A DNA stretch of 64,000 nucleotides from Ignavibacteriota bacterium. GTDB taxonomy: Bacteria > Bacteroidota > Ignavibacteria > Palsa-1295. The notes under the pieces were generated by a model. It made no database searches. It was not told the origin of the DNA and worked only from the letters and a program-made list of their open reading frames with translations. The position numbers were made by a program, and so were the translations under genes. Positions 928-60,889 of this stretch are shown here, in pieces (the first letter of the stretch is position 1; every line of letters begins with the position of its first letter). The DNA is taken from positions 1-64,000 of the forward strand of contig PLYO01000020.1 of assembly GCA_003151825.1 (NCBI GenBank). The letters run 5' to 3'.

Positions 928-1092
928 TCGTATATTAGTGGTTGCTTTGATGGGCACCTGTTTCAATTACGAATGACAAATTACGAATTACGAATGTGGG
1001 GAGGGGAATCGAATTGGTTTTCATTATGAAATTAATGAAAAGCTTCATGAAAATTAAACGTGAAAACACATTTTGAGCACCTTTTCTATAAG
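928..1092. repeat. Dispersed ~165-nt intergenic repeat, copy 1
   Basis: This stretch matches 47558-47722 over its whole length with few changes: both begin gtcgtatatt, run through tgctttgatgggcacc, a heptamer repeat tract, cgaattggttttcattatg, and end gaaaacacattttgagcacc plus ttttct. A second partial copy of the terminal motif (cacactttgagcacc) follows at 1157-1172. The gap 795-1208 between the GIY-YIG gene and trmD holds nothing else recognisable. It could be a non-autonomous mobile repeat or a conserved RNA element; no open frame is conserved between copies. Confidence 0.8.
964..999. repeat. Heptanucleotide tandem repeat (locus A)
   Basis: Five 7-nt units read caattac, gaatgac, aaattac, gaattac, gaatgtg. 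The period is exactly 7 with drift between units. It lies inside the dispersed repeat copy 1. Confidence 0.85.
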
Positions 1093-1208
1093 AATCATAT
1101 GAAAATGGACTGAAATCGAGGTGTTCATGAATAGTTTGATGAGTATTAACCGAGCACACACACTTTGAGCACCATTTTTTTAGGGAAACGTAGCTTATTT
1201 TAATCCAC

Positions 1209-1880
1209 TTACAACAAATCCGGCCTGCGCTCTTCGGTTCTTCGGAGGGCTTCTTCGTGACGATAGATGTCGATCTTTTTATGATCGCCGCTGAGGAGAA
1301 TTTCGGGGACGTGCATTCCTTCGAACTCGGCGGGACGGGTGTAAGCCGGGGCATCGAGTAGGCCGTTTTGGAAGGAATCCATGAGGGCGCTTTCGGCATC
1401 GTGCATGGCTCCGGGCAATAGCCGCACGATGGCGTCTATGAGCACACAGGCGGGCAGTTCGCCTCCTGTGAGGACGTAATCGCCGATGGAAATTTCTTTG
1501 GTGATCCACCGCTCGCGGACGCGCTCATCCACGCCTTTGTAATGGCCGCAAAGTATGATGAGATTATTTTTCATCGAAAGATGATTAGCCATAGGCTGCG
1601 AGAAGCGCTCGCCATCGGGCGTCATAAGAATGCGCTCGTCGTAATCGCGTTCGCCCGTGAGTTCTTTGAAAATTGCGAACAGCGGTTCGGGTTTTAGAAC
1701 CATTCCCGCGCCGCCGCCGAAGGGTTCGTCATCGATTTGATGATATTTTCCCATGCCGTATTCGCGCAAATCGTGCGTTACAATTTCGATCACGCCTTTC
1801 TCACGAGCACGTTTCACGATGCTTTCGGAGAGCGGGCTTTCAAGGAGCTTTGGAACGGCGGAGATAATATCGATGCGCAT
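1209..1880 (-). CDS. trmD: tRNA (guanine-37-N1)-methyltransferase TrmD
   Basis: SPOUT-class methyltransferase that methylates N1 of G37 beside the anticodon using S-adenosylmethionine, preventing +1 frameshifts. The 224-residue protein opens MRIDIISAVPKL and shows the family signatures DEPFGGGAGMVL, LCGHYKGVDERV and ISIGDYVLTGGELPA, which form the trefoil-knot SAM site. The start at 1880 gives the normal N-terminus; the frame stays open 31 codons upstream but that stretch overlaps the promoter of lpxC/fabZ and looks non-coding. The C-terminal extension found in proteobacterial TrmD is short here, as in Bacteroidota. It is divergent from lpxC/fabZ with a 61-nt intergenic region, so the two promoters must overlap or abut. 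Confidence 0.95.
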   Translation of the reverse strand: MRIDIISAVPKLLESPLSESIVKRAREKGVIEIVTHDLREYGMGKYHQIDDEPFGGGAGMVLKPEPLFAIFKELTGERDYDERILMTPDGERFSQPMANHLSMKNNLIILCGHYKGVDERVRERWITKEISIGDYVLTGGELPACVLIDAIVRLLPGAMHDAESALMDSFQNGLLDAPAYTRPAEFEGMHVPEILLSGDHKKIDIYRHEEALRRTEERRPDLL

Positions 1881-1941
1881 GGACACTATTACAGGCCATG
1901 AGGCGAAATGGTTTAGCGTTTCTGGCAGTTTACACAACTTC

Positions 1942-3357
1942 ATGCGCGCACAGCAACGTACCGTTTCCAACATTTCGAAGTTCGAAGGCGCCGGTCTTCA
2001 TACCGGAAATCCGAGTTCGATTGAATTTCATCCCGCGCCGGAAGGCTATGGGATTCGCTTTGTCCGTAGCGATATGGCCGGCTCGCCGGAAGTTCCGGCG
2101 CTCGTCGATTTTGTCACCGATATTTCACGCGGGACGACACTTTCCGTCGATAGCGCAAGCGTTCATACCGTGGAGCATGTGCTGGCCGCTGTCGTGGGAC
2201 TGGAAGTCGATAACGTGCGCATCGAGCTAACGGCCAACGAGCCGCCGATTGGCGATGGCAGCGCCGGGCCGTATGTCGAAGCGCTGCTCGCCGCCGGTTT
2301 TACGGATCAATCCGCGCCGAGGAAATATCTCGTCGTTGACGAAACGGTTTCATACCGGAATGAAGAACAGGGTGTAGAAATTGTCGCGCTTCCGCTTCCG
2401 AACGATTATCGCGTGACGGTGATGGTCGATTACAACAATCCGGCGCTTGGCAGTCAGCATACAGGTCTTTTTTCGCTCGAAAAAGAATTTGTGACGGAAT
2501 TTTCAAACGCGCGGACATTCTGTTTTCTGCATGAAGTGGAAGTGCTTCGCGACCGCGGCCTCATACGCGGCGGGAATCTCGATAATGCCATCGTCATTGT
2601 CGATCGCGATCTCGATGAGGATGCGATGCACAGTCTTGCAAAAAAATTAGGAATCAGCGGAAGCGTGATGCTTGGCACGAGCGGCATTCTGAACGATAAG
2701 AAGCTGCGCTATAAGAACGAGCCGGCACGGCACAAGCTGCTCGACTTGCTTGGCGATCTTGCGCTTGTGGGCGCTCCGATGCAAGCGCAAATACTCGCGG
2801 CGCGGCCAGGGCATGCCTCGAATGTCGAATTCGCTCGCAAGCTGCGCAAGTTGAACGAAAAGAAATCGCTTCTCCAGAAATATAATCCTTCCGCCACGCG
2901 CGATTTTATATTTGACATTACGGCAATCGAGCGCATCATGCCGCACCGGTATCCGATGCTGCTTGTCGATCGCATTCTCGAAATGGACCTTGCGGAAGGA
3001 CACGAGCGAATTTTGGGGCTCAAGAACGTGACGTATAACGAGCCATTCTTCATGGGTCATTTCCCCGGTAAACCTGTTATGCCGGGCGTGCTCTTACTCG
3101 AAGCCATGGCACAAACGGGCGGAATGCTGCTGCTCAATGCGGTTGACAATCCGGAGGGTAAACTCATTCTCTTCATGTCCATCGATAAAGCGAAATTTCG
3201 GAAGCCTGTTGTGCCCGGAGACCAGGTATTATTCGAGCTTCGGATGCTTCGGCGGCGTGGAAAAACATTTGTGATGGCAGGCGAAGCGAAAGTCGAAGGA
3301 CAGCTTGTCGCCGAAGCCGAGTTCATGGCCGCTATCGTAGGGCGCGATGCAAAATAA
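1942..3357 (+). CDS. lpxC/fabZ: Bifunctional UDP-3-O-acyl-GlcNAc deacetylase / 3-hydroxyacyl-ACP dehydratase
   Basis: A 471-residue fusion. The LpxC half (about 1-310) is the zinc deacetylase that commits UDP-GlcNAc to lipid A: HTVEHVLAA places the zinc His at residue 79, and RHKLLDLLGDL supplies His264 and Asp268. The FabZ half (about 325-471) is the hot-dog dehydratase of fatty-acid elongation, with the catalytic His373 in FMGHFPGKPVMPG and Glu387 in LLLEAMAQ. This fusion is characteristic of Bacteroidota and relatives and ties 3-hydroxyacyl-ACP supply to lipid A demand. The start MRAQQRTV is chosen because it begins the conserved domain; the frame is open further upstream but overlaps trmD. 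lpxA follows after 30 nt and is probably co-transcribed. Confidence 0.95.
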   Translation: MRAQQRTVSNISKFEGAGLHTGNPSSIEFHPAPEGYGIRFVRSDMAGSPEVPALVDFVTDISRGTTLSVDSASVHTVEHVLAAVVGLEVDNVRIELTANEPPIGDGSAGPYVEALLAAGFTDQSAPRKYLVVDETVSYRNEEQGVEIVALPLPNDYRVTVMVDYNNPALGSQHTGLFSLEKEFVTEFSNARTFCFLHEVEVLRDRGLIRGGNLDNAIVIVDRDLDEDAMHSLAKKLGISGSVMLGTSGILNDKKLRYKNEPARHKLLDLLGDLALVGAPMQAQILAARPGHASNVEFARKLRKLNEKKSLLQKYNPSATRDFIFDITAIERIMPHRYPMLLVDRILEMDLAEGHERILGLKNVTYNEPFFMGHFPGKPVMPGVLLLEAMAQTGGMLLLNAVDNPEGKLILFMSIDKAKFRKPVVPGDQVLFELRMLRRRGKTFVMAGEAKVEGQLVAEAEFMAAIVGRDAK

Positions 3358-3387
3358 TTTTTCTATAGGGCGAGCACGTTTTTACGA

Positions 3388-4203
3388 ATGGCCATAACGA
3401 TTCATCCTACCGCGATTGTCGATCCTCGTGCCGAGCTGTCGGAGGGAGTCGAGATCGGCCCCTACGCGATTATCGAGGGCGACGTGCGTATTGGCCATGG
3501 GACGCGCATCCACCATCATGCTTTCGTCGGAAATGGCGCTCGTATCGGCGAGCGGTGCGAGGTGCATCACGCGGCCGTGGTTTCAAACGTCCCGCAAGAC
3601 TTGAAATTTAAAGGGACCGAAAAGACTTACGCCGAGCTTGGAGACGATTGTGTTATTCGAGAATTTGCAACCGTTCATCGCGCGACGATTCACGATTCCG
3701 ATACGAACGCCGGCACGAAAGATGGCATCACGCGCGTGGGAGCGGGATGCCTCATCATGGCTTATTCTCACGTGGCACACGATTGTTTCCTAGGCGAGGG
3801 TGTTATTCTTTCGAATGCAACCCAGCTTGCCGGTCATGTGACAATCGATAAATGGACGACCGTCGGCGGAGGCTGCCTCGTTCACCAATTTTGTATGGTT
3901 GGAATGCTCTCGATGCTTGGCGGCGGCGCGGAAGTCCGCAAGGATGTCCCGCCATATTCTTTGGTGGGTGGTGGGGATGCAAAGTTCAGTGGCATTAACC
4001 GGATTGGTCTTCAGCGTCGCGGCAAGGATGCCGCCACGATCCAGGCGATCAAGGCTGTCTATTTTACGCTCTACAATTCCGGGCTAAATGTTTCTGCTGC
4101 AGTGCAAGCCATTGCTGGCGGCCCGGATACTTCGCTCCCCGAGGTTCGGGAAATCCTGAACTTCATTGCTCTCTCGAAACGCGGAGTCATCGGGGCCGCG
4201 TAA
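3388..4203 (+). CDS. lpxA: Acyl-ACP--UDP-N-acetylglucosamine O-acyltransferase LpxA
   Basis: First enzyme of lipid A synthesis: transfers a 3-hydroxyacyl chain from ACP to UDP-GlcNAc. The 271-residue sequence is a run of hexapeptide repeats (IHPTAIVDPRAELSEGVEIG and on) that forms the left-handed beta helix, with the catalytic His in YSHVAHDC, then the LpxA-specific GGGAEVRKDVPPYSLV and FSGINRIGLQRRG segments and a helical C-terminus. Length is close to the family norm (262-270). It follows lpxC/fabZ by 30 nt in the same direction, so the first two committed steps and the acyl-chain dehydratase are in one unit. A strong bidirectional terminator follows. Confidence 0.96.
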   Translation: MAITIHPTAIVDPRAELSEGVEIGPYAIIEGDVRIGHGTRIHHHAFVGNGARIGERCEVHHAAVVSNVPQDLKFKGTEKTYAELGDDCVIREFATVHRATIHDSDTNAGTKDGITRVGAGCLIMAYSHVAHDCFLGEGVILSNATQLAGHVTIDKWTTVGGGCLVHQFCMVGMLSMLGGGAEVRKDVPPYSLVGGGDAKFSGINRIGLQRRGKDAATIQAIKAVYFTLYNSGLNVSAAVQAIAGGPDTSLPEVREILNFIALSKRGVIGAA

Positions 4204-4267
4204 AAGCATTAGAGTATCGGATAGTGTCCAGAGCGGCAAGACCCTCGAACTCCAAAAATAGGCAAAC

Positions 4268-4301
4268 AAAAAGCCCTCGCTATTTATAGCGAGGGCTTTT
4301 T
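4268..4301. terminator. Bidirectional intrinsic terminator between lpxA and the convergent secreted-protein gene
   Basis: A perfect 13-bp stem (aagccctcgctat / atagcgagggctt) with a 2-nt loop is flanked by A residues on the left and T residues on the right, so it can end transcription from both converging genes. Confidence 0.92.
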
Positions 4302-4321
4302 GCTTAAACTTCCGGAGTTCG

Positions 4322-8716: not shown

Positions 8717-9739
8717 TTATTGACAATCAATCGCCCCTTCATCGATCCATTCGCCTATTTTCAAGACCTGATTAGGCGCCATCGCGGGCGCGGGTGGCAG
8801 AGGCATACGGCTATTTACATTAAACTGGGTGATTGCGGTGAATAGCCGACTTGAGCGTGCGTTGCCTCGGCGGACGCTCCCGAGAGTTCCATCATACGTA
8901 TTGTAGTTATACCCTGCCGCGTGTGTGGTTGCATCATGGCACCCGGTTATGCCACAATTCGAGGAAAGAAGAAGGAGAATATTATCCCGCGTAAAGCAGA
9001 GCTGGGAATCCGTTGAATTCAAAATTGTGATTGTGCTTTCCGAAAAGACCGTACTATCGAGCATAGAGATAGCCCGGACAACAATCTGAAGACCATCCGC
9101 GGCTATGGTTGCCGGAGCTGTGAATAGCCCGGAATCGCTGATCGAGCCGCTCGTCGCTTCCCATCGCACCGGCGGAATAGCGCTTTGAGTCGTGAATGTA
9201 TCGAGTAAAAACTGCTGGACCGTATTCGTGAGGAGCGTCACCGAAGCGGGAGCCACGCTAAAAGCGGTATCGTTAGGAGATATAATGGAGACCGGACAAA
9301 TGACCGATCGATTGGGATTTTCATCGGAGGTGACTCGGATATTGGCTATTTCGTTGAACGATGTCAAAATGGGCGGTGCGGTATAGATTGCGCTGGAGCC
9401 ATTCGCAACGATCGTCCCCATATTCGTTCCATCCACAGACCACGTCACGTTTGCGGAACTCGAAAATCCGAGGACGGATGCAGTAAGCATTAACCTGCCG
9501 CCAGTAAGTGTTAAACTGCCGCCATTGTACGAAACCGTCGCCGCGACCGGCGAGACATGGACTTCCGTCAAGTCAATATCCGGGTTCCCGTCGATCGTGT
9601 ACTGACAGCCTGTCAAGTAAAAAGTAAGAAGTAAGAAGTAAGAAAAAAAGACAATGGCCCGCGCATGACCCGCATCGCCGACGATGCGTATCATGCGTAT
9701 CCTATACGTCTTTCGGGTTCTTTGGGTCTTTCTGCTCAT
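8717..9739 (-). CDS. Lipoprotein with Ig-like domains and a C-terminal c-type haem domain
   Basis: About 340 residues. The start at 9739 is chosen for its upstream agaggaaataat. A basic n-region and the hydrophobic stretch VFFSYFLLLTFYLTGC end in a lipobox Cys. Two bacterial Ig-like (Big-type) domains follow: VHVSPVAATVSYNGG with SANVTWSVDGTNMG, and FSVAPASVTLLTN with PPVRWEATSGSISDSG. Near residue 261 comes CGITGCHD, a CX4CH haem site, with MPLPPAPAM as likely axial Met region and KIGEWIDEGAIDC at the end, the pattern of small cytochromes attached to surface proteins in Bacteroidota and Planctomycetes. It is the last gene of the Rieske operon, 14 nt after the haem-barrel gene. The signal peptide is built from repeat DNA: a palindrome (9661-9697) encodes the n-region and a heptamer tract (9615-9645) the hydrophobic core. 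Confidence 0.82.
   Translation of the reverse strand: MSRKTQRTRKTYRIRMIRIVGDAGHARAIVFFSYFLLLTFYLTGCQYTIDGNPDIDLTEVHVSPVAATVSYNGGSLTLTGGRLMLTASVLGFSSSANVTWSVDGTNMGTIVANGSSAIYTAPPILTSFNEIANIRVTSDENPNRSVICPVSIISPNDTAFSVAPASVTLLTNTVQQFLLDTFTTQSAIPPVRWEATSGSISDSGLFTAPATIAADGLQIVVRAISMLDSTVFSESTITILNSTDSQLCFTRDNILLLLSSNCGITGCHDATTHAAGYNYNTYDGTLGSVRRGNARSSRLFTAITQFNVNSRMPLPPAPAMAPNQVLKIGEWIDEGAIDCQ
9615..9645. repeat. Heptanucleotide tandem repeat inside a lipoprotein signal peptide (locus B)
   Basis: Units aagtaaa, aagtaag, aagtaag, aagtaag then a run of A. Read on the minus strand in frame it encodes the hydrophobic core FFSYFLLLTFYLTG of the haem lipoprotein. Confidence 0.9.
9661..9697. repeat. 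Palindromic repeat element inside the signal-peptide n-region
   Basis: Core gcatcgccgacgatgc (9672-9687) flanked by gcatga and tcatgc arms makes a nested hairpin. It encodes MIRIVGDAGHA of the haem lipoprotein and matches the intergenic copy at 8261-8287. Confidence 0.65.
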
Positions 9740-28930: not shown

Positions 28931-28961
28931 GTTATTCATTACCCGTTGCTCGTTGCTCTAC
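28931..28961. repeat. Heptanucleotide tandem repeat at the 3' end of rfaE1 (locus C)
   Basis: Units gttattc, attaccc, gttgctc, gttgctc, then tac. On the minus strand it encodes the last residues VEQRATGNE and the stop codon of rfaE1, so the gene end has been rewritten by repeat DNA. Confidence 0.85.
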
Positions 28962-30281: not shown

Positions 30282-30400
30282 CGAAATAAAAAGTCGTATT
30301 AGTGGAAAGGTATAAATTCTTTTATATTACAAGGTGGTAAACGGCAATATGTCAAGAAGAATTACGAGATATGAATTACTATTTGGTCGAACGATCCCAT

Positions 30401-30435
30401 CATTCTTCATTCTTAATTCCTAATTCTTAATTGAT
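30401..30435. repeat. Heptanucleotide tandem repeat upstream of pgpH (locus D)
   Basis: Units cattctt, cattctt, aattcct, aattctt, aattgat. It ends 39 nt before the pgpH ATG, in the 5' untranslated or promoter region. Confidence 0.88.
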
Positions 30436-35366: not shown

Positions 35367-36431
35367 ATGAAGCACGAAAGCCATAAAGTGAAGCCCGCTC
35401 GCCCGTTCGCGTTTGCCGCCGCGTTCCTCCTTTTTTTCATACTTCATACCTCATACTTCATACTTCCCGCCCACGCGCAGGATATTGACGAATCGGCGCG
35501 CGCGTATCTATCGGACATCCTGAATAAGCCGCTCAGCCCGCGCGCGGCCGCGATGGGCAATGCTTACGTCGCCATGCCGAACGATCCCAACAGCATTTTC
35601 AGCAATCCCGCCGCCATTTCGAGTATTGTCATTACCGATTCCACGCGCATGAACAATATTTCCGTGAGCTATTCGCATTACGTGCTCGATATTAACGAGG
35701 GCGCGTTCGTTTATGAGCACCCGGTTCCCGAGAATGTTCTGTTCGCTGGAAATTTCGCCGCCGGTGTGCAGTATTTTTCGGGTGGGACGTCCACCGAAGC
35801 GGATGCCACCGGACAAACGCTCGGAACGTTTAACACGGAAGACGTCGCGTTGCTGCTCGCCTATTCGAGCACGGCTTCGAACGGTTTGCATTATGGCGCG
35901 ACGGCGAAAGTTGTGAGTTCCAGCCTGGTTTCCGGTTCCTCCGTGCAGAATTACAGCGCCACCTGGATGGCCGCCGATCTTGGGCTGTATTACGAGTGGG
36001 TCAAGGAGCGGATGACCTTTGGGTTTTCCGTCCTCAATTTGGGAACCGAACTTTCGCAGTATGCCGGCGTGGATGAACCCGTCGGGCCGGACGTGCAGTT
36101 CGGCGCGACGATCAAGCCGCAGCATTTGCCGCTCACGCTCTCGCTGGCGTTTCATAATCTCACGCGCGACCGCGAGGGACGCAATCTCTTTTATGCGTTC
36201 GACGATTTTTCATTAGGCGGCGAGTTTGCGATGGGCAAGGTGGTCCGCATCCGTTTTGGATATGAGAACGAGTTGCGCCACGAGCTGAATGTCCCCACCG
36301 GCAACGGCTTTGCCGGTTTCTCCGGCGGCATTGGTCTCCACATCAAACGCTACGACATCGACTTCGCCATCAACGACGAAGGCCCCGATTTCACACCCTT
36401 CATCCGCTTTGGGATTCGGACGGATTTGTAG
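35367..36431 (+). CDS. PorV/PorQ-like outer-membrane protein (T9SS-associated family)
   Basis: 354 residues from the ATG at 35367. Signal peptide FAAAFLLFFILHTSYFILPAHAQ; its core is encoded by a heptamer repeat (35437-35467). The mature start, LNKPLSPRAAAMGNAYVAMP and NSIFSNPAAISSI, is the FadL-like conserved opening shared by PorV and PorQ, and the rest is a beta-barrel ending FTPFIRFGIRTDL. PorV escorts T9SS cargo to the sortase PorU, and PorQ is in the attachment complex; which of the two this resembles is unclear. The gene leads a run of envelope genes, and a fragment matching its last 17 residues recurs at 42266. Confidence 0.75.
   Translation: MKHESHKVKPARPFAFAAAFLLFFILHTSYFILPAHAQDIDESARAYLSDILNKPLSPRAAAMGNAYVAMPNDPNSIFSNPAAISSIVITDSTRMNNISVSYSHYVLDINEGAFVYEHPVPENVLFAGNFAAGVQYFSGGTSTEADATGQTLGTFNTEDVALLLAYSSTASNGLHYGATAKVVSSSLVSGSSVQNYSATWMAADLGLYYEWVKERMTFGFSVLNLGTELSQYAGVDEPVGPDVQFGATIKPQHLPLTLSLAFHNLTRDREGRNLFYAFDDFSLGGEFAMGKVVRIRFGYENELRHELNVPTGNGFAGFSGGIGLHIKRYDIDFAINDEGPDFTPFIRFGIRTDL
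35437..35467. repeat. Heptanucleotide tandem repeat inside a signal peptide (locus E)
   Basis: Units tcatact, tcatacc, tcatact, tcatact. In frame it encodes the hydrophobic core FILHTSYFILP of the PorV-like protein. Confidence 0.9.
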
Positions 36432-44593: not shown

Positions 44594-47452
44594 TTATTTT
44601 CCACGGAGCTCATCCCAGGAAGTTTTAATTACAAGATAGAGATGGTGGTTTGCTCCAAGCTGGTTCTGCAGAATCGGTAAATATTTCACTATCAACTTTT
44701 CACCTTTTTCTAACTCACCTGCTCGATAGAGTGCAAATCCAAGACTAATGTATGAATTAATTGTATCACGGTGTTCCTCACCGTGTAACTTCAATCTTAT
44801 TTCTAAAGCTTTAGTATGTAACTGAATCGCTTTCTCGGGCTTGCCTGATCTTGAATTGAAAACCCCCAAATTATGATAAGCATCGGAAACGGAGTAATGA
44901 TTTTCTCCATAGATCGATCTACTTAGATTCAACACGCTCAAGTAATATTCTTCAGCTTTCTCCTTCTCTTCCGTTTGAACAAAAGTGAGTGCGAGATTAG
45001 TCATCGGAGCGATAAGTTTGGCATCACTTTTTCCATTGAGTCGCTGGTACATTTCCATCGATTCAGTGAAAAACGGTATAGCCTCATTATATTTTTTTCT
45101 ACTAAATAAAATACTGCCGATATTGCTAAGGGTAGAAGCTGTGTACTGATTGTCTCGCCTAAAATAATTTTGATAGCGGCCGAGCGCATTTCGGAAGCAT
45201 TGGTCAGCCTCATCGAGATTACCTACCGAATAATAGATGGTGCCAAGATCGTTAAGATTCAACGCAATTTTCGGATCGTTCAAGTCGATAATTTTTTCCC
45301 GGATCGCGATTGCAGTCTTTAGCAGTTCTTCCGCTTCTGCGAATTTTCCCGTGTGATAAAAAAGCGTTGCGAGATCGTTCATGCTTTCGGCAGTGGTAAG
45401 GTCGTGAGCGCCGAACAGTTTTTTTCTGAGGTCCAGCGCCGTCCGTAGCTGCGCTTCGGCCTCCGGATAGATCGAAGCGGCAACAAGCGCGTTGCCGAGC
45501 TTTGCGGAGACATCGGCAAAATATTTTTCAGCGGGTCCACTCCGGGCAAAATCCTCCATAGCCGCATGATACGTCTCCGCTAAGGGGTGTTTGTCCTGAA
45601 GATAAAGCCAATACCCGTTCAACTGCTGCCTGTGCGATTCATCGAGAAGCATATCGAGCATTGTGATATCGGTGATACAGGCTTTGAATTTCTCCGCATC
45701 TCTGGCAGATTGCCACTGCCACGGCTCCTCATCGGTACGCCGGTGGCCATATTCTCGCGTTGAAAAATAATCCCCAAGTTTGGTATGTGCAGCTTTTTTC
45801 GCGTCATCCTGTGGCACATAGCGCCGTTCGATGGCCTCGCGCAAATAATTATGGAAGAAGGTATGGAAACCCTCGCGCTGCATGAGGTGGTATTCCATGG
45901 CGATCATCATTTCCGAAAGCGCTATGCGAGACAGGCCGGTAATATCCATGAGTTCCGCTTCCGACAGCCCATGCCGCGAAGCCCAGATGGCCGTCATCAC
46001 GCTCCGCACGGCCTCTTCGCCATGATCGCGCTCCATGCGGGCAAGCACTTTCTGGAACAATTCCCGCTCGTCCGCGCTGGCGAGGTAGTCATCCAACTGT
46101 TGGTGCAGCGTGGTGTGATGGCCGAAAATGCGCAGCTCTTCCAGCACCGTTCGCAAAAACAGTGGGCTCGACGATTTCTTGTCCGAAGAAAGAATATGAT
46201 GATCTTCTGCCGTTAGCGACTTGTGATACCGGCTAAGGAATTCGCGGGCGATAGATTCCCGCTGCGCTTCATTTAGCGGCTGAAGTTCGAGTTCATTCCA
46301 ATTCCGCTTGCGTAATTGTTCGAGCGGAAGGCTGTCAGAGGTTGTTGAGAGTACAAGACGGACGTTCGGCGGAATAAACTCGGGCATCCAGTGCATTTCG
46401 GGAGCAATCCCTGTTAATTGATTTAATGCATCAATTAATAAGACAAGTTTATCCTCTGGCTTTATTTTTGCGATCCAGACAGGAAATTCCTCCCTCAAAT
46501 TGTTATCGTCGGTTGGGATTGTGTCCGAAAGCTGGTAGCGTTCTTTGATTTCCATCATTACCTGCCGCATTACGTCTTCGGGGTCGCTTCCTTCCGCTGC
46601 GCCGATGAAATGCTGGACCACGAAAGCATTCGGATTCCGCGATTGATACTCATGCGTGAGATACGCCATGAGCGCGCTCTTTCCCAATCCGGATTTCCCC
46701 CATATTATCAGCGGCGGGCCATCGGACATGACATGCCTCACAAAAGCATCATAATATGCAGGATTTGCAACATAAGATTGCCTTCTGTTTCTTGCGTAAG
46801 CTTCATGCTCGATGCGCTCTCGTTCGAGTGGCGTAAGCTCTGCCTTTTTAGGGAAATCGCGGTCGAGGATGGTGAGGATGTCCTGGAAAACTTGTTCGCC
46901 GAGTTCTTCGGGGTCACTAAACTTGCGGTAGGGTAGGCCAGATGATTGCAAATTATCCTTGAGAGCGTCAAGCGGCCCATCGTCGCCATGGGACGAATGG
47001 GTCACATGGGACGGATGGGCTTCAGTTGGAAAGGATTGCTCATAAAAAAAAGCGCTGTCGTTTTTCAGCAGCACGGCGCCGTGAGCGAACTCCATTTCAA
47101 TAATGCTTTTTTCTCCTGCGGCGTATTCTTGCAGCCAGGGAAATTCTTTCAGCATCTCCGGGTCTTTTTCTATCTCGGTGATTCCGGGAATCCATCCATA
47201 CCGCGAGCCGATGATGCCGATGAAATACGGGCGGCATTTGTCGATCTCTTCCAGGCAAATGCGGACGGTCTTCCCGGTGCGCGACTCTTCCTCGGTGATA
47301 CCCCAGCGGAGGTCGATCTCGGTAAATTCCACCCCGCGCGCACGGCATTCCTTCCGGATGCGCGGAAACACTTTTTTCACGAGTTGTTCTCGCTCCGGCA
47401 TGAGATCGCGGAACGTCGAGGAGACAAATAGTCGAAGTTCGTTCGAAGGCAT
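44594..47452 (-). CDS. DUF4062 + STAND/NACHT-like NTPase + TPR protein
   Basis: 952 residues. The N-terminal ~170 are a DUF4062 domain (LRLFVSSTFRDLMPEREQLV, EFTEIDLRWGITEEESRTG, YFIGIIGSRYGWIPG), a Rossmann-like TIR/SLOG-related fold. The NTPase has Walker A in IIWGKSGLGKSALMAYL (about residue 255), Walker B in KLVLLIDALNQL (about 336), RLVLSTTSDSL as sensor, and a winged-helix stretch after ~450. From ~650 kinesin-light-chain-type TPRs run to the end (AESMNDLATLFYHTGKFAEA, ALNLNDLGTIYYSVGNLDEA). The order matches nephrocystin-3/TEP1-type proteins of eukaryotes and bacterial NLR-like antiphage proteins. It stands alone between convergent neighbours, beside a dispersed repeat. The TPR half looks more AT-rich than the NTPase half. 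Confidence 0.85.
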   Translation of the reverse strand: MPSNELRLFVSSTFRDLMPEREQLVKKVFPRIRKECRARGVEFTEIDLRWGITEEESRTGKTVRICLEEIDKCRPYFIGIIGSRYGWIPGITEIEKDPEMLKEFPWLQEYAAGEKSIIEMEFAHGAVLLKNDSAFFYEQSFPTEAHPSHVTHSSHGDDGPLDALKDNLQSSGLPYRKFSDPEELGEQVFQDILTILDRDFPKKAELTPLERERIEHEAYARNRRQSYVANPAYYDAFVRHVMSDGPPLIIWGKSGLGKSALMAYLTHEYQSRNPNAFVVQHFIGAAEGSDPEDVMRQVMMEIKERYQLSDTIPTDDNNLREEFPVWIAKIKPEDKLVLLIDALNQLTGIAPEMHWMPEFIPPNVRLVLSTTSDSLPLEQLRKRNWNELELQPLNEAQRESIAREFLSRYHKSLTAEDHHILSSDKKSSSPLFLRTVLEELRIFGHHTTLHQQLDDYLASADERELFQKVLARMERDHGEEAVRSVMTAIWASRHGLSEAELMDITGLSRIALSEMMIAMEYHLMQREGFHTFFHNYLREAIERRYVPQDDAKKAAHTKLGDYFSTREYGHRRTDEEPWQWQSARDAEKFKACITDITMLDMLLDESHRQQLNGYWLYLQDKHPLAETYHAAMEDFARSGPAEKYFADVSAKLGNALVAASIYPEAEAQLRTALDLRKKLFGAHDLTTAESMNDLATLFYHTGKFAEAEELLKTAIAIREKIIDLNDPKIALNLNDLGTIYYSVGNLDEADQCFRNALGRYQNYFRRDNQYTASTLSNIGSILFSRKKYNEAIPFFTESMEMYQRLNGKSDAKLIAPMTNLALTFVQTEEKEKAEEYYLSVLNLSRSIYGENHYSVSDAYHNLGVFNSRSGKPEKAIQLHTKALEIRLKLHGEEHRDTINSYISLGFALYRAGELEKGEKLIVKYLPILQNQLGANHHLYLVIKTSWDELRGK

Positions 47453-47557
47453 GTCATGAAAATCGAAAGTTGCTGAAGATAGTTTTCTATAAATAAAGAT
47501 GTGAGGGGTATTACGATGGGCGATAATTTTCCGATTTCACACACCATCGAAATAATT

Positions 47558-47722
47558 GTCGTATATTGCGTGTGCTTTGATGGGCACCCATATCACTTAC
47601 GAATTACGAATGACAAATTACGAATGTGGGACGCGGAGTCGAATTGGTTTTCATTATGAAATTCATGAAAAGTCAAATGAAAATTAACCGTGAAAACACA
47701 TTTTGAGCACCTTTTCTCTAAG
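47558..47722. repeat. Dispersed ~165-nt intergenic repeat, copy 2
   Basis: Partner of 928-1092, in the gap 47453-47899 between the NTPase gene and rarA. The rest of the gap is AT-rich with no gene I can support; an open frame on the minus strand at 47684-47899 overlaps the repeat and lacks protein-like features. Confidence 0.8.
47594..47629. repeat. Heptanucleotide tandem repeat (locus F)
   Basis: Units cacttac, gaattac, gaatgac, aaattac, gaatgtg. Compared with locus A in copy 1, the order and number of units differ, so the tract changes faster than the flanks. Confidence 0.85.
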
Positions 47723-47899
47723 ACAAATGGCGAAATTAGATCGGAAACGCCACAGTTCATGAAGCACAAATGCGTTTTCGGGTTTTTTGGATGAGAGGGT
47801 TAAAGTTTTATGCAGTCGCAATGCATAAAATTTTTGAGGGGAAAATGGATTTAGGGAAATATTTGGGATGATTATGAATGTGCTTTCGGGCACCTCCAA

Positions 47900-49309
47900 T
47901 CAACCCTTTCCATATTTCTCCGGCCACAATGCTTTGAGCCGGTCGAGAATTGCTTTTTCGCGGCCTTGGTCGGTGGGGTGGTAGAAGGTTTTGTCCGTGA
48001 TGGTCTCCGGCAGGTAGGTCTCGCCGCGCGCGAAGTGACCCGGCTCGGAGTGGGCGTAACGGTAGCCTTCGTGGTAACCTAAGGATTTCATCAGCTTGGT
48101 CGGGGCGTTGCGTAGATGAAGCGGGACCGGCTCGTTGGGATTTTCTTTGGCTTCTTCGAGCGCCGAGAAAATTCCCTTATACGATGCGTTCGATTTATTG
48201 GCCGATGCAAGATAGGAAACGACTTGACCGAAAATGATCGTCGCTTCGGGATAGCCGACGGCGCGGACGGCGTCCCAACAGGCGGTAGCGAGCAGGAGCG
48301 CGTTGGGGTCGGCATTGCCGATGTCTTCGCTGGCAAAGATAATCATGCGTCGGGCGATGAACTCCAAATCCTCGCCGGATTCGATCATGCGGGCGCACCA
48401 ATAGAGCGCGGCATTCGGATCCGAGCCTCGCATGGATTTGATGAACGCGCTGATGATATTGTAATGCTCCTCGCCCGCTTTGTCATAGCGAGAGGCTTTG
48501 CGGCCATACGCGGCTTCGATGCTGTCGATAGTAATAACCACCCCCCGTCCCCCGCCTTGAAAAGGCGGGGGTGATTCAGGAGGGGGAGTAAGTTGCACGG
48601 CCAACTCCAGAGCGTTCAGCATTTTGCGCGCATCGCCACCGGAAAGCGCGATGAGTGCGCGGCGGGCATCATCGGCGAGCGTAATATTTAGCGGACGAAG
48701 TTCTTCGTCTTGGGTGATCGCGCGGTCGAGCAATTGTTCGAGATCTTCGCGCGATAAATTTTCGAGCACGAAAACTCTGGCGCGACTTAAGAGCGGGGAG
48801 ATTACTTCGAAGGAAGGATTTTCCGTCGTCGCGCCGATGAGCGTGATGTCACCGTGCTCGACAGCGCCTAACAGCGCGTCCTGCTGCGATTTCGAGAAGC
48901 GATGGACTTCGTCGATGAAGAGCACGCTGCGGTCTTTTGAATTCGGGTTTGCTTCTTTTGCTGATTCGATGGCCTCGCGCAAATCTTTTACGCCCGCGCT
49001 AATGGCCGAAAGCGAAAAAAACGGCGCGTTGACCGAATGGGCGAGTATATTGGCAAGCGTCGTTTTTCCGGAACCCGGTGGACCCCAAAAGATCATCGAG
49101 TGCAGCTTACCGCGCTCGATCATCACGCGAAGCGGGTTGCCCGGACCGATGAGGGATTGCTGCCCAGCAACCTCATCCAAGCTTTGCGGCCTCATTCGTT
49201 CGGCGAGCGGAGCGAAGGTGTGGGGTAACGGGTAAGGGGTAAAGGGTAACGGGTTGCTATCCAATTGTTTGGAGGGTTTCGGCCTCTTTTGTCCCAAAGT
49301 TTCGTTCAT
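47900..49309 (-). CDS. rarA: Replication-associated recombination protein A (RarA/MgsA)
   Basis: 469 residues. AAA+ clamp-loader-like ATPase that acts at stalled forks. Seen are PLAERMRPQSLDEVAGQQ, Walker A GPPGSGKTTLANILA, Walker B VLFIDEVHRFSKSQQDALL, sensor LIGATTENPSFEV with arginine finger in LLSRARVFVL, and the C-terminal HYNIISAFIKSMRGSDPNAA and YPEATIIFGQVVSYLA. Two repeat insertions are carried in frame: a heptamer tract (49223-49257) encodes SNPLPFTPYPLPHT in an N-terminal extension, and a palindrome (48549-48571 plus flanks) encodes TPPPESPPPFQGGGRG between the AAA+ lid and the helical domain. Both lie at tolerant sites and the catalytic motifs are intact. Confidence 0.93.
   Translation of the reverse strand: MNETLGQKRPKPSKQLDSNPLPFTPYPLPHTFAPLAERMRPQSLDEVAGQQSLIGPGNPLRVMIERGKLHSMIFWGPPGSGKTTLANILAHSVNAPFFSLSAISAGVKDLREAIESAKEANPNSKDRSVLFIDEVHRFSKSQQDALLGAVEHGDITLIGATTENPSFEVISPLLSRARVFVLENLSREDLEQLLDRAITQDEELRPLNITLADDARRALIALSGGDARKMLNALELAVQLTPPPESPPPFQGGGRGVVITIDSIEAAYGRKASRYDKAGEEHYNIISAFIKSMRGSDPNAALYWCARMIESGEDLEFIARRMIIFASEDIGNADPNALLLATACWDAVRAVGYPEATIIFGQVVSYLASANKSNASYKGIFSALEEAKENPNEPVPLHLRNAPTKLMKSLGYHEGYRYAHSEPGHFARGETYLPETITDKTFYHPTDQGREKAILDRLKALWPEKYGKG
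48549..48571. repeat. Palindromic insertion inside rarA
   Basis: A 10-bp stem (cccccgcctt / aaggcggggg) with a short loop, flanked by further C- and G-rich arms (48541-48587). It encodes the in-frame PPPFQGGG segment absent from ordinary RarA. The sequence type is common as a dispersed palindrome in several bacterial phyla. Confidence 0.75.
49223..49257. repeat. Heptanucleotide tandem repeat in the rarA N-terminal extension (locus G)
   Basis: Units gggtaac, gggtaag, gggtaaa, gggtaac, gggttgc, five perfect-length copies, translated on the minus strand as SNPLPFTPYPLP. Confidence 0.92.
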
Positions 49310-54217: not shown

Positions 54218-54239
54218 TATATGCGTTATAGCGCATATA
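54218..54239. promoter_or_regulatory. Inverted repeat between arsR and arsC, candidate ArsR operator
   Basis: Perfect 8-nt arms tatatgcg / cgcatata are separated by 6 nt, the size and symmetry expected for a homodimeric ArsR site. It lies 36 nt before the arsC ATG. It has no T-run and is not a terminator. Confidence 0.55.
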
Positions 54240-54275
54240 TTCATGCCGCTTTAAGCATGTTTCAAACTTCGCACA

Positions 54276-54737: not shown

Positions 54738-55417
54738 AGGATTCCCAATTGCCGCAACGCATGGCCGCCGAGGCGATTGGCGCATTTGCCATCGTCTTTT
54801 TTGGCTGCGGCGCGATCATGGTGGCCGAGCGGTTTCCGGGAAGTATTTCTCCATCGGCCATCCCCGTTATTTTCGGGCTGGCGGTTGCCGCGATGATTTA
54901 TGCGCTCGGCCATATTTCCGGAGCGCATTTCAATCCGGCGGTTACGCTGGCTTTTGCCGTGAGCCGTCACTTCCCGGCGCGGGATGTCGCCGCGTATTGG
55001 GTTGCGCAATGTGTCGGCGCGCTGCTCGCGACGGGGATTCTTTTTTTGATTCTGCCGGAAGGCCATTTGTATGGCGCGACCGTCCCTTCGGTTCCCACAA
55101 TTCCCGCAATAGCGTGGGAAGCAGTGTTAACCTTTTTCCTGATGTTCGTCATCATGGGCGTGGCGACGGATACGCGTGCCGTTGGCACGATGGCCGGCGC
55201 GGCTATTGGCGCCGCCGTCATGCTGGGCGCCTTCGTAGGCGGGCGCGTCACCGGCGCCTCGATGAACCCTGCGCGTTCGCTCGCGCCAGCCATCGCCGAA
55301 GGACGAATGGACGTGCTGTGGATTTACATTGCCGGGCCGATGTGTGGGGCAATCGTGGCTTCGCTGCTTTACCGGTGGGTTCGGGGGAATGGAATGCCGC
55401 CAAATGATAAGACGTAA
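54734..55417 (+). CDS. aqpS: Aquaglyceroporin of the arsenic operon (AqpS-like MIP channel)
   Basis: 227 residues from a GTG overlapping the arsC stop; an ATG lies at 54761. Six membrane helices and the two NPA half-helices are clear: [16 protein letters not shown] (about residue 67) and [18 protein letters not shown] (about 176). In Sinorhizobium meliloti an aquaglyceroporin (AqpS) replaces the ArsB pump between arsR/arsC genes, letting arsenite leave downhill. The same set appears here, with no ArsB or Acr3 in the window. Substrate selectivity residues were not resolved by eye. It ends 12 nt from the convergent metH. Confidence 0.9.
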
Positions 55418-55429
55418 TTAATTGATTTC

Positions 55430-57256: not shown

Positions 57257-57258
57257 CA

Positions 57259-57298
57259 AAAGTAAAACACCCCGTTCGTCTTTCGACCAACGGGGTGT
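57259..57298 (-). terminator. Intrinsic terminator in the metH leader (riboswitch expression platform)
   Basis: On the minus strand a 10-bp stem (acaccccgtt / aacggggtgt) is capped by a GTC-GAAA-GAC mini-hairpin and followed by ttttactttt, ending just before the metH start. It sits downstream of the SAM-II-like aptamer, so it should stop transcription when SAM is bound. Confidence 0.82.
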
Positions 57299-57324
57299 GC
57301 AAGTAGTTAAGTGATCTACATTAC

Positions 57325-57373
57325 GCTTTAGCTTTTATTTAATGTCGCAGCAAGCTGTCGGTCAAAGCACGAC
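57325..57373 (-). ncRNA. SAM-II-like riboswitch upstream of metH
   Basis: Read on the minus strand, gtcgtgctttgaccgac, then agcttgctgcgac, attaaataaa and agctaaagc follow the SAM-II (metA/SAM-alpha) consensus closely: a P1 stem (gtcg/cgac), the U-rich loop ending in ACCG, the CUUGC segment, an A-rich strand and the invariant GCUAAA. Pairing of agctt with aagct gives the pseudoknot P2. P1 differs from alphaproteobacterial examples by compensatory change. Gene context (metH) and the terminator downstream support it. The usual GUGAUUU is GUGCUUU here, one departure from consensus. Confidence 0.78.
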
Positions 57374-57445
57374 GTGATTATGTAACGAGATGAGCTACTT
57401 TTGAGTTCACAGAGTCGTGAAGCGTTCATCCCGTATTTTTGCATA

Positions 57446-59125
57446 GTGACAAATTTTCGCCTCCGAGCGTATCTCGCAATCGTTCTCCTCGCAACCGCCG
57501 CGCTGTGGTCGGGCGTAGCGGGCATTCGTTTGAATTCGGACGATTATCAATACCTTGCCTCGCTATCTCCGATTCAGCATTTTGGGGATGTGCTTCGTCC
57601 TTTCGTTAGTCCCGATGCCAATCCGAGTTTTTTTCGTCCCGTGACCAATGCTACCATGGCGCTCGATTTTTTACTCTTTGGATGGAGCGGAGCTGCCTTT
57701 CATTTCACGAATCTTTTTTTTCATCTCATCGCTACGCTGCTCGTTTTTTATTTTGTTCGCGATATTTTTGCGCTGACGGAAAGAGAATCGTTCTGGACCG
57801 CGCTCCTTTTTGGGATTGCCGCTTCCCACGAATACAATCTTGTTGACGATACCGCTCGCGCGGATGTGCTCGCGGCGATTTTTGTCATGCTTACATTCCT
57901 CCTGGAAAAACGAACGTACCGCATTGCCGCGCTTGCATCCTTCGCGCTGGCACTGCTCTCGAAAGAGATTGCAATTATGGCGCTGCCGCTTGTGCCAGCG
58001 ACCTTTTGGGAGAAATCCGGCAATCGAAGTCGGAGTGCGCGCCGAGCGATCCTTCTAACCACGCCATATATCATTATTGCGGTCGCATTTAATTTCTATC
58101 ACGCTCATTTCACTCAGCCCATTCTGGCCAGCCAACCGCTCACATCGGAAGGAGCGCATTCTCTTGCGGCCTTTTTGCAAAATGCGGCATATTCGATCGG
58201 CTATCTTATACTCCCGCTCGATTTGGGATCGGCGACCGCCGTTCTTACGCAATATCATGCACTGGCGTTCACAGTTGGAGTCGTGCTTTGCATTGCTGTG
58301 ATCGGACTTGTGATTCGTAAAAGGGATAAAGCTTTCCTCGCGCGACTTTGGAAACCACTCGCCTTTACGCTGGTGACCGGCTTTGTCCTTTGCCTGACAT
58401 TCGAACGCTGGCGGCTTTATCTGCCTTCGGTGGGTGCCGTGGCGATCATCGCTCTCATGGTAGGTCGTGCTTCGCCTCGGATTATACGAACTGCACTGCT
58501 CGTAGCGATGATCCCACTCGGAGCGTTTCATATTTATCGCGCGCTTGCGGCGGAATCCGAATGGCGCGTGAGCACGGCAATGCGCGATACGCTGCAAGAG
58601 AGCTTGGCAGGCATCCTTGCTCGCATTCCGGAGCGGCCAGTTACGCTTGGCATGCTCGATGTGCCTGCGAAATTGGGGAGCGCGGCCGTCGATGAGCTTG
58701 GCCAATCTGCGCTGGTAACGCGCGCGGAAGCGGATCGCATCAGCGAGCGAAATCGCGAAACGGCCGCGACCGATAGCGTTCATGTCGATTCATGGACTGC
58801 GGTGAACGTCTATGCGCTGAACGCCTCGGAAGGTTTTCGAGGTCTCCAATTGGCGCAGATTTCTCGTAACAGCTACCTCATAAGCGTTCCGGAAACGAGC
58901 ACGATCGCGCTGTATCCGGGCAGCACTACCAATGGGACCGCTCGAAGAGACGTCGCATTTCATTCCGGCGATACCATTTCTGAGCCGGAGTTCGTGGATA
59001 TTATTCGCTCGTCCTTATTCGGCATCCCGAAGTCCATAGAGGTCCGTGTCCTCGATACCTCGGCTGTGTTGTTGTCATTCAATGGTCATTCATTCGAGAG
59101 AATTAGGAACGAAAGTGCTCATTGA
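57446..59125 (+). CDS. Multi-pass GT-C-like membrane glycosyltransferase (paralogue 1)
   Basis: About 559 residues from a GTG at 57446; a TTG at 57401 is the alternative. The first helix LRAYLAIVLLATAALWSGV is followed by GIRLNSDDYQYLASLSP, the DD pair of GT-C enzymes, and by FRPVTNATMALDFLLFGW, FHFTNLFFHLIATLLVF, LFGIAASHEYNLVDDTARAD, as in TMTC- and Pmt-like proteins of bacteria. About ten helices precede a soluble C-terminal ~200 residues (LGMLDVPAKLGSAAVDELGQ). It is closely similar to the convergent gene at 59119, overlapping it by 7 nt, so the pair arose by inverted duplication. It likely moves sugars from lipid carriers to an acceptor outside. Confidence 0.72.
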   Translation: MTNFRLRAYLAIVLLATAALWSGVAGIRLNSDDYQYLASLSPIQHFGDVLRPFVSPDANPSFFRPVTNATMALDFLLFGWSGAAFHFTNLFFHLIATLLVFYFVRDIFALTERESFWTALLFGIAASHEYNLVDDTARADVLAAIFVMLTFLLEKRTYRIAALASFALALLSKEIAIMALPLVPATFWEKSGNRSRSARRAILLTTPYIIIAVAFNFYHAHFTQPILASQPLTSEGAHSLAAFLQNAAYSIGYLILPLDLGSATAVLTQYHALAFTVGVVLCIAVIGLVIRKRDKAFLARLWKPLAFTLVTGFVLCLTFERWRLYLPSVGAVAIIALMVGRASPRIIRTALLVAMIPLGAFHIYRALAAESEWRVSTAMRDTLQESLAGILARIPERPVTLGMLDVPAKLGSAAVDELGQSALVTRAEADRISERNRETAATDSVHVDSWTAVNVYALNASEGFRGLQLAQISRNSYLISVPETSTIALYPGSTTNGTARRDVAFHSGDTISEPEFVDIIRSSLFGIPKSIEVRVLDTSAVLLSFNGHSFERIRNESAH

Positions 59126-60837
59126 AGAGCCTGGAATGTGCGTCCATCGAACAGAACGGGGAGCCAGGAAGCGCCGGTATTTTCAATTCGTATCGCTCGC
59201 GCGAACGAGCCGTCGGCCTCCAGAACCGTCACGCGGTTAGTGCCCACATCGAACACATCTCCATTTTTCAATTTCCAGTCGCGCCGGGAAACGCCGTTTA
59301 ATTTAAAAATTACCGGCTCGAAGCGAAGATGACTGCCCGGAGCGGCGCTGAGCGTGATTGAGGTATCGGACAATCGTTGCCAAACCATGTGCGAGAACCC
59401 TTCGAAGGGATCGAGTGCGTAGATATCGACCGCCTTTTCGACCGTAAGATTGGTTCCCATTTCGTCGCCGTATCGGAGTCCCGGCAATGCGAGCCGTTCT
59501 GCTTCGGCCTGACGAATGAATTCCGGAAACCCGACCAGCATGACCGATGCGCTTCCTACTTTCGCCGGGACATCGAGCAAATCAAGTTTGAGAGGCCGAG
59601 ATGGGTGCGTGTTCAGAACCGCTTTAAGGCCCTCTTTCAGCTGTTGAACCTCAGCCGCCGCCATGCGCCAGTTATCCTCGGCCGCTCTCGCACGCCAAAG
59701 GTGAAAGCAGAGTAGAATGAGTGCGCCCATCACTATGATAACTCGATAACTTCGATGTTTCGCGTGACGCCATGCGTCCGCCGCGAAGAGCGCGGCAATC
59801 GCAAACAGCCCGATCGAAGGCATATAATATCGCCAGCGCTCGAAGGATTGCATGGCCACGACACCGGCGATAACAAAAAATAGTATGGGCCGCAGATACA
59901 CTCCCCGTTCCATGCGCGGCAACCGAAGCCAAAGTGCAAATGTGGCAATCATCAGCAGGAATGGAAGGCTCCACAGCCATGGTGATTGTTCGCGCAGAAG
60001 GACCGTCGCCTGATCGAGATCGAGCGGGAGCAATGCGTAACCGATCCCATACATGGCATTGCGTACAAACGCAACGATCGAATGGGAACCCTCCGAAAGC
60101 AACGGTTCCGTTTCGTTCATAGGTACGGTAAAATGCGTTCGAACGATCCAAAACAAAACGGCGATAGCAATGTAAGGAGTAAGATGAAGAACCGAGTTGC
60201 GCCAATTCACATGCTTTGCGAGCGCAGCAGGAAGTTCGAGGAGAACCATCAGGAGTGGCAGCGCGAGCAGCCCATTCTCTTTCGAAAGCAGCGCAAGCAA
60301 ATACGCAATACAACTCAAGATAAAAAACAATCGCCGTTTTTGTACAAGACCCGCTTCGTGCGCGATCAGCATGAGCATGGTGAAAATCGTTACTAATATA
60401 TCCGCGCGAGCCGCCGGCCACAGAAGATTGCTTTCGTGGGAGGCCGCAATGCCAAAAATAAATGCGGTGATCGCGGAAATTGTCACCGAAAGCCGCAATA
60501 CTCGCCTCGAAAACGGGAAGACTAACGCGGTCGCGGCCAGGTGAAGCAAAAAATTCGTGAGATGGAAGCCCTGGCCGTTCCATCCCCAAATGAGGAAATC
60601 GAGCGCGGCGGAGGCATCCGACAAAGGCCGCCAATAGGGAGGGTTTGGATCGACATGCCAAAATGGGCGCAGAACATCGGCAAGCGTTCGAATGGGCGCG
60701 AGTTGCTGAATGAAAATATAATCGTCCGTGCTAAATCCCACGCGGAGCGCGCCAGACCATACGAGCGCGGTTGCGGCGAGAATCGCGAGGACAAGCCAAC
60801 CCTTTCGGGTGTTAACGAAGGTGTGGATGATGATAAT
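59119..60837 (-). CDS. Multi-pass GT-C-like membrane glycosyltransferase (paralogue 2)
   Basis: About 572 residues if translation begins near ATT 60837; a GTG at 60741 is the first standard start but would remove the first membrane helix (WLVLAILAATALVWSGALRV), which aligns with paralogue 1, so the longer form is preferred. GFSTDDYIFIQQLAP carries the DD pair, then WRPLSDASAALDFLIWGW, FHLTNFLLHLAATALVF, IFGIAASHESNLLWPAARAD. The soluble C-terminus includes LDLLDVPAKVGSASVMLVGF. No usual start codon exists upstream, and a heptamer repeat lies just outside (60855-60889), perhaps having altered the 5' end. It is divergent from rsmA. Confidence 0.7.
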   Translation of the reverse strand: MIIIHTFVNTRKGWLVLAILAATALVWSGALRVGFSTDDYIFIQQLAPIRTLADVLRPFWHVDPNPPYWRPLSDASAALDFLIWGWNGQGFHLTNFLLHLAATALVFPFSRRVLRLSVTISAITAFIFGIAASHESNLLWPAARADILVTIFTMLMLIAHEAGLVQKRRLFFILSCIAYLLALLSKENGLLALPLLMVLLELPAALAKHVNWRNSVLHLTPYIAIAVLFWIVRTHFTVPMNETEPLLSEGSHSIVAFVRNAMYGIGYALLPLDLDQATVLLREQSPWLWSLPFLLMIATFALWLRLPRMERGVYLRPILFFVIAGVVAMQSFERWRYYMPSIGLFAIAALFAADAWRHAKHRSYRVIIVMGALILLCFHLWRARAAEDNWRMAAAEVQQLKEGLKAVLNTHPSRPLKLDLLDVPAKVGSASVMLVGFPEFIRQAEAERLALPGLRYGDEMGTNLTVEKAVDIYALDPFEGFSHMVWQRLSDTSITLSAAPGSHLRFEPVIFKLNGVSRRDWKLKNGDVFDVGTNRVTVLEADGSFARAIRIENTGASWLPVLFDGRTFQALQ

Positions 60838-60854
60838 GAGTAAGAATCACTATC

Positions 60855-60889
60855 CTAATTCACAATCCATCATTCATAATTCCCCGATG
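60855..60889. repeat. Heptanucleotide tandem repeat abutting the rsmA start (locus H)
   Basis: Units ctaattc, acaatcc, atcattc, ataattc, cccgatg, drifting but in 7-nt register. It runs into the rsmA ATG at 60887 and forms its whole immediate leader. Confidence 0.8.

Follow-up and report, generated by a model that had tools for sequence, protein, structure and literature searches.

Heptad Arrays of an Ignavibacteriota Genome as Probable Ends of Small Hairpin-Ended Elements with S23 Genes

Introduction

Tandem repeats of seven nucleotides are known from several groups of bacteria. In cyanobacteria, short tandemly repeated repetitive sequences (STRRs), or heptamer simple sequence repeats, are dispersed tandem heptamers that lie mostly between genes. 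REPINs, which are built from repetitive extragenic palindromic (REP) sequences, occur as singlets and inverted doublets in intergenic DNA. The S23 protein (PF05635) is a four-helix-bundle protein known from intervening sequences (IVSs) of 23S rRNA; the structure of S23/IVP proteins is solved, and we know of no function for them. Herein, heptad arrays are described that were met in a stretch of 64,000 nucleotides (the window: positions 1 to 64,000 of contig PLYO01000020.1) of an Ignavibacteriota bacterium. These arrays are probably the terminal repeats of small hairpin-ended elements whose full copies contain an S23 gene, most of the arrays being solo or gene-less remnants.

The IVS of Coxiella burnetii carries tandem heptamers before the start of its S23 protein (S23p), the number of which varies between strains, and has been called a selfish element; IVSs with S23p are cut from 23S rRNA by RNase III at their stem (both as described in PMC4990558). 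The S23 loci described here, which were chosen for their S23 gene, are like the rRNA IVSs of that account in that the S23 open reading frame (ORF) lies in the loop of a stem formed by terminal inverted repeats. They are unlike them in lying between or inside protein genes, in having arrays on both flanks in 48 of 77 cases, and in being accompanied by many gene-less copies. Annotated protein genes stand beside S23 in 22 of 23 plasmid loci (L309 is unannotated), in a plasmid table that lists no RNA genes, and the same is true of locus L050 of the genome studied here. Hence, these loci are not classed as rRNA IVSs.

With cyanobacterial STRRs, as outlined in the introduction of PMC4692102, the arrays share being dispersed, tandem, and mostly intergenic, but they are tied to an S23 gene and to inverted arms and occur in several phyla. 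The GGGAATC arrays of Xanthomonas are similar in having mostly four units, in forming convergent pairs, and in lying about 28 nt from ORFs on the 5' side; they differ in that the units here are mostly G-poor and in that the sections of the Xanthomonas account cited here draw no link to S23 (PMC4692102). The TAACTGA arrays of Beggiatoaceae also consist of heptamers next to start codons, and TAACTGA is reported from Cyanobacteria and Bacteroidetes as well; in that account, however, they represent one unit, mainly in one orientation, and inverted pairs are rare (PMC4679880). Unlike REPINs, the present arrays showed no link to a REP-associated tyrosine transposase (RAYT) and consist of tandem heptads instead of palindromic REP sequences. 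Avd of the diversity-generating retroelements is a reported structural relative of PF05635 (PMC10053308). In the open-licence literature, no paper tying heptad arrays to S23 genes in general was met.

S23 Genes between Inverted Arrays

S23 genes are associated with heptad arrays. At L050, two arrays 474 bp apart stand between two protein genes, and the 474 bp encode an S23 protein. Between the aligned gene ends, the spacer measures 542 bp in this genome (G000), 81 bp in G004, 70 bp in G005, and 220 bp in G006, all of the same genus. In G001 and G002, the site as judged by eye contains no gene but R–Y hairpins whose arms lie roughly a dozen bases apart, R denoting the purine-richer strand and Y its complement (the label is arbitrary for purine-balanced units, of which there are three in this genome and several in the Thermomicrobiales metagenome-assembled genome (MAG) G041). 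Matches to PF05635 that pass the cut-off number 22 in the genus; they are spread over six of its seven genomes, with five in this genome and none in G005. At 16 of 21 matching positions, arrays lie on both sides of the gene in 14 of these 22 cases and on a single side in seven (distant from the gene in L256), L255 being the only one with none. The eight sub-cut-off PF05635 loci of the genus that were fetched have no arrays.

The same association was counted in 77 S23 loci from Ignavibacteriae, Chloroflexota, Gammaproteobacteria, and plasmids of several phyla, with the rule of a period-7 array at 16 of 21 matches no more than 350 bp from the S23 domain. Both thresholds were set after the genus and plasmid loci had been inspected; 29 new gammaproteobacterial loci were unseen at that point. 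An array is present at 70 of the 77 loci and on both sides at 48, namely at 19 of 21 loci in the genus (13 on both sides), 22 of 23 on plasmids (17), 26 of 30 in Gammaproteobacteria (16; the 29 unseen loci together with L278), and three of three in G041 (two). The 77 exclude L267, which has no recognised S23 ORF and contains stops, the G041 fragments L284 and L286, and L279, L281, L283, and L285, which are the same places as G003 loci; the plasmid loci are 23 of 27 matches (H15, H18, H20, and H26 left out), and the panels of the G042 class and of the phylum each comprise the best 30 loci. Other periods from 4 to 12 occur near S23 at no more than three of the 77 loci. As controls, the own genes of this array-rich genome have an array in 89 of 803 cases (four on both sides), RarA genes in one of 78 (none on both sides), and weak PF05635 and Y1 transposase loci in one of 17 (none on both sides; L190 was omitted as too short).

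The arms of an element are, as a rule, inverted copies of one heptad: 38 of the 48 two-sided loci share it with at most one mismatch, compared with a mean of 2.4 and a maximum of seven for shuffled partners. Even the seven array-less loci have inverted flanks, with scores of 13–42 against a cross-locus 95% level of 12.6. Taking both panels together (the second being the Bacteroidota loci treated in the Discussion), inverted flank similarity exceeds the 95% level of RarA flanks at 95 of 107 S23 loci. Inverted flanks look general for S23 loci; clean heptads do not. Above the cut-off, PF05635 itself occurs in 153 of the 198 genomes sampled from this phylum; for the G042 class, the figure is 52 of 274.

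Some S23 loci deviate in form or stand in a particular neighbourhood. By eye, the flanks of L255, L354, L368, L369, and L370 read as period-8 inverted arrays, and at L299, on a plasmid of Nostoc sp. UHCC 0870, the S23 gene is bordered by inverted copies of a sequence of about 50 bp that are almost perfect and have no heptad array. At eight of the 23 plasmid loci (L294, L300, L305, L287, L303, L304, L306, and L308), S23 adjoins CRISPR (cas1, cas2), restriction-modification, DISARM/BREX, or DUF1156/Swt1 genes by annotation.

Orientation and Pairing of Arrays

Neighbouring arrays of the genome face each other. Within 150 bp, the order is RY in 12 cases, RR in two, YY in one, and YR in none. An inverted partner within 600 bp that scores above the 95% null was found for 35 of 81 arrays, in 32 cases on the inward side, and three inverted pairs fold with z scores of −5.8, −8.1, and −13.1; single arrays of the window show no folding. 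Orientation also follows the gene edges. Of the arrays at most 20 bp from an edge, 28 have R facing outward and five have Y (15 and two at starts, 13 and three at stops). At 21–60 bp, the numbers are eight R and one Y at starts and zero R and 12 Y at stops, and many of the arrays at this distance from stops sit near the opposite gene of the same spacer. The inverted pairing, the orientation at gene edges, and the S23 gene had all escaped the preliminary description of the window, which was made from the sequence alone.

Heptad Identity across Lineages

The heptads of the genome match those beside the S23 genes of its genus. Of 81 array units, 40 are exact matches to S23-flank heptads and 34 more are one base off, as opposed to a mean of 6.5 and a maximum of 16 exact matches for foreign heptad sets of equal size. 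Across the 70 S23 loci with arrays, 60 distinct heptads occur. The mean heptad distance is 0.2 between loci with more than 90% S23 identity, 1.5 at 80–90%, 2.2–2.4 at 60–80%, and about 3.4–3.5 below 50%, where it is near random. Below 70% identity, pairs show a weak rank correlation (−0.06), a value that five of 500 permutations reached.

Presence, Absence, and Unit Number

In two comparisons of Nostoc loci, the unit is present or absent as a whole. Where L344 (same strain) and L345 have 188 bp, L301 has the complete unit, both arms included, the flanks of L301 and L344 being 99.8% identical on the right and 90.0% on the left. In L296, the unit takes the place of 328 bp of an annotated cytosine methyltransferase gene that is intact in L339, L340, and L341; in these three, one CAATTCG, the own heptad of the L296 element, stands at the left junction. 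The empty sites of both plasmid comparisons have no arrays. Target-site duplication was not seen in either case, and 188 and 328 bp of target were lost. A classical transposon or miniature inverted-repeat transposable element was therefore rejected for these two cases, which show neither target duplication nor a clean empty site. The loss of target DNA and the heptad at the junction suggest annealing at short homologies, which may be taken as a lead from two cases.

Unit number changes as well, in line with the strain comparison that the preliminary description had proposed. Two Planktothrix loci are identical in the compared stretch, and a third, whose S23 gene is almost identical, differs by +7 and +21 bp, both located in the upstream arrays, with further changes downstream.

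Census of Arrays in This and Related Genomes

The census covered the window and 60 further stretches, in total 1,196,299 bases of the 3.59 Mb assembly. At 18 or more of 21 matches, period 7 occurs at 58 loci, period 14 at 13, and period 21 at 11, the other periods from 1 to 24 each at zero to five. At 17 of 21, there are 81 period-7 arrays with a trimmed length of 19–40 bp (median 30). Two-unit tracts are not in excess at period 7 (98 compared with 80–105 at control periods); higher match scores are strongly over-represented, and only three tracts score above 20. The 81 arrays comprise 29 unit types, led by AATTACG (12), AAGTAAG (seven), AAGTATG (six), and AAAGATG, AGTGGAT, and AATGACG (five each). 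An identical 30-bp block with the same variant unit was found again in different flanks; hence, blocks spread. With respect to genes, which were called by our own hexamer script, 49 arrays are intergenic, 13 lie across a gene end, and 19 lie within called genes, the coding share of the sequence being 83%.

Thus, tandem 7-nt units of several types are dispersed chiefly between genes, as in STRRs. One period combined with many unit sequences, which the preliminary description had proposed from eight loci, holds across the genome, and the scan that it had named as a possible refutation finds period 7, with its multiples, as the only enriched period. Its estimate that about half of the tracts lie in coding sequence does not hold across the genome, with 19 of 81 inside called genes. 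A comparison of the window with Rfam at gathering thresholds gave no matches. Other dispersed inverted-repeat families occupy the same spacers as heptad arrays in this genome (e.g., in L003, L040, L042, and L047).

In the genus, a degenerate heptad pattern, which covers only part of the unit types, has 124, 107, 36, 18, 16, 1, and 41 matches in G000 to G006, respectively. The single match is that of G005, which also has no PF05635 match, as opposed to 16–124 in its six congeners. In 200 kb of G001, there are nine arrays and no close pair. In 80 RarA neighbourhoods of named genomes (652 kb), period 7 is present at 18 of 21 six times, five of them in a single Thermomicrobiales MAG, G041, which has 45 arrays in 191 kb picked around known matches. 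A plasmid search with G-rich heptads gave no matches, low-complexity masking being the probable cause.

Arrays of the Window

Tandem Repeats Finder (TRF) and a lag-7 scan confirm six of the eight loci for which a strict 7-nt period had been claimed. Each array is 29–33 bp long with 4.1–4.6 units; four of the six reach 18 of 21 matches and all reach 17 of 21. AATTACG forms two arrays on the plus strand, at 965–995 (about 4.4 units), inside a dispersed promoter/leader-like repeat, and at 47597–47625, in a second copy of this repeat; the same heptad forms both arms of L050. The AAGTAAG array at 9615–9644 (plus strand) lies at the 5' end of a gene called on the minus strand, and its units, read as GTAAGAA, also occur in arrays around the S23 gene of L269 in the same genome. 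A tandem repeat of 21 bp with 2.1 copies is located nearby at 9481–9524.

On the minus strand, the AATTAAG array at 30400–30432 (purine strand) lies 42 bp upstream of a 7TMR-HD gene. By eye, it is absent upstream of this gene in six loci of relatives; AATTAAG is also found in one arm of L265 in the same genome. The AAGTATG array at 35436–35466 (minus strand, purine strand) is translated as a hydrophobic core, likely that of a signal peptide, and four related loci show a signal-peptide-like start without the repeat. AAGTATG units flank the S23 genes of L252 and L266 in sister species. The GGGTAAC array at 49223–49254 (plus strand) lies just upstream of the likely true start of RarA/MgsA and differs by one mismatch from GAGTAAC, which flanks L254. 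By RarA, the nearest named relative is an uncultured Ignavibacteriae MAG (78% identity), which bears out the FCB-like (Fibrobacteres–Chlorobi–Bacteroidetes) host assumed earlier; this MAG belongs to the same genus as the window genome, and its S23 match coordinates are the same as those of G003.

The two remaining loci do not stand. At 28931–28960, the supposed array consists of C-terminal codons of a PfkB-family gene, with a perfect repeat of only 15 bp; in relatives, as compared by eye, this gene stops at an unchanged codon (L101) or close to it (L102, L099) and has no repeat there. The tract at 60847–60889 (minus strand; called at about 60855 before), directly upstream of an rRNA adenine dimethylase domain, is a degenerate, heptad-like tract that stays below 17 of 21 and has period 14 by TRF. 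Elsewhere in the window, positions 44594–47452 encode a DUF4062-NACHT-TPR protein with the layout of a STAND-type (signal transduction ATPase with numerous domains) sensor.

A Dispersed Promoter/Leader-like Repeat

The repeat around the two AATTACG arrays spans 895–1150 and 47550–47780 of the window and consists of a promoter-like part (TTGACA, TATATT) and a leader with the motif GATGGGCACC. Further copies are found in L008, L013, L017, L018, L019, L021, L028, L032, L034, L042, L047, L052, L056, and L058. Most copies have a heptad array at one position 3' of the motif, with differing heptads and three or four units, so that copies differ by one unit; the copies at position 3526 of L022 and 6620 of L027 have no array. 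As an account of the arrays, the repeat was rejected: it explains the surroundings of 965, 47597, and the further copies, and not those of most arrays.

Discussion

A full copy of the proposed element would consist of an array of about four to five heptads, an S23 gene, and the same heptad array in inverted orientation. Each element lineage would have a heptad of its own. By pairing, the two arms could make a long stem, whose loop would hold the gene or a short spacer. The structure PDB 2rld, which has five chains, is a homologue of S23 (E 4e-30), and for the S23p of Xanthomonas a toroidal homopentamer has been reported (PMC4990558). Such a ring may bind the array with about one heptad per subunit; a reading of about one 7-nt unit per subunit would explain the period, the length, and the private heptad of each lineage. 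S23 would promote the spread of the element, and insertion may replace host DNA by annealing at short homologies instead of by cut-and-paste. The arrays of the window would be solo ends of such elements, an assignment by family resemblance, since no S23 gene lies in the window and no clear partner accompanies its arrays.

Several observations weigh against this reading. PF05635 has no match on the contig of the window (C42), and only one of the six window arrays, 30400, has an inverted partner within 600 bp, which is marginal (10.0 with a 95% null of 9.5). Seven of the 77 S23 loci have no array, ten of the 48 two-sided loci have no common inverted heptad, and inverted flanks exceed the 99% level of the cross-locus null, which is itself raised by shared heptads, at only 27 of 77. 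Some plasmid loci are close relatives (L292, L295, and L296), so that 77 overstates the number of independent cases. In a Bacteroidota panel tested later by the same rule (the best 30 loci of 198 genomes), period 7 is present at 12 of 30 (two on both sides), period 8 at seven (two on both sides), and other periods at one at most; by eye, many of its inverted flanks are degenerate runs of 7–8 nt units with recurring AG. The pairs of G041 comprise nine RY, three YR, one YY, and one RR, two of the YR pairs having purine-balanced units, and the purine-first orientation fails in several Nostoc S23 loci. Finally, none of the evidence shows S23 acting.

Ordinary microsatellites, meaning local 7-mers multiplied by replication slippage without any element, are a quite improbable source of the arrays. 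Whole-unit changes between close strains (+7 and +21) and of one unit between leader-repeat copies agree with slippage, but two-unit tracts are not in excess, longer ones are, and almost none score above 20. Furthermore, slippage leaves the unit families common to several sites, the inverted pairing, and the S23 link unexplained. As the origin of the arrays it is largely refuted; later changes in unit number are likely due to it. The preference of the preliminary description for an integration process over pure slippage is thereby retained, and its addition "rather than one spreading sequence" is given up, as heptad families are shared and blocks spread. It is rather unlikely that host hairpins or regulatory sites came first and that S23 genes inserted into them, like IVSs in rRNA stem loops. 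This order would fit the L050 spacer, with R–Y hairpins lacking S23 in G001 and G002 and a short one with another unit in G005 (z of −3.95, −1.72, and −6.02), and the fact that most arrays of this genome are without an S23 gene. It conflicts with both Nostoc comparisons, in which relatives have neither arrays nor gene, and with the own heptad kept by each S23 lineage.

The chance that the arrays are REP/REPIN-like elements spread by a RAYT (Y1) transposase is very small. Their inverted doublets and singlets resemble REPINs, and every one of the seven genomes in the genus has Y1_Tnp genes; however, only one of ten fetched Y1 loci has an array at 16 of 21, a RAYT accompanied by its own repeat is not the pattern observed, and G005 has six Y1 matches but one match to the heptad pattern. 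It is also highly improbable that the arrays are G-quadruplex elements or sites bound by regulators of transcription or translation, as has been suggested for TAACTGA and GGGAATC arrays. Arrays do lie close against gene starts and stops; according to MacGregor, the majority of TAACTGA sets lie immediately before start codons (PMC4679880), and Rehm et al. describe a mode of four units and 70–75 convergent pairs in two Xanthomonas genomes (PMC4692102). In the present arrays, however, the heptad varies by site, and starts and stops show the same orientation up to 20 bp from the gene edge. GGG is absent from most of the 29 unit types, and with most units lacking a G-run, G-quadruplexes are not the common factor.

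Beyond the genus, the S23 element may tentatively be extended into a general, and so far doubtful, proposal: bacterial heptamer repeats would largely be the ends of widespread S23 elements, the pentamer would read the heptad code of its lineage, and gene and gene-less hairpins would spread without a transposase, replacing host DNA at short homologies. If true, dispersed heptamer repeats and S23/IVP proteins, both unexplained, would become joined. S23 would gain a natural substrate in its own array, the period of seven and the four to five units would gain a physical reason, and PF05635 genes would become recognisable as element genes.

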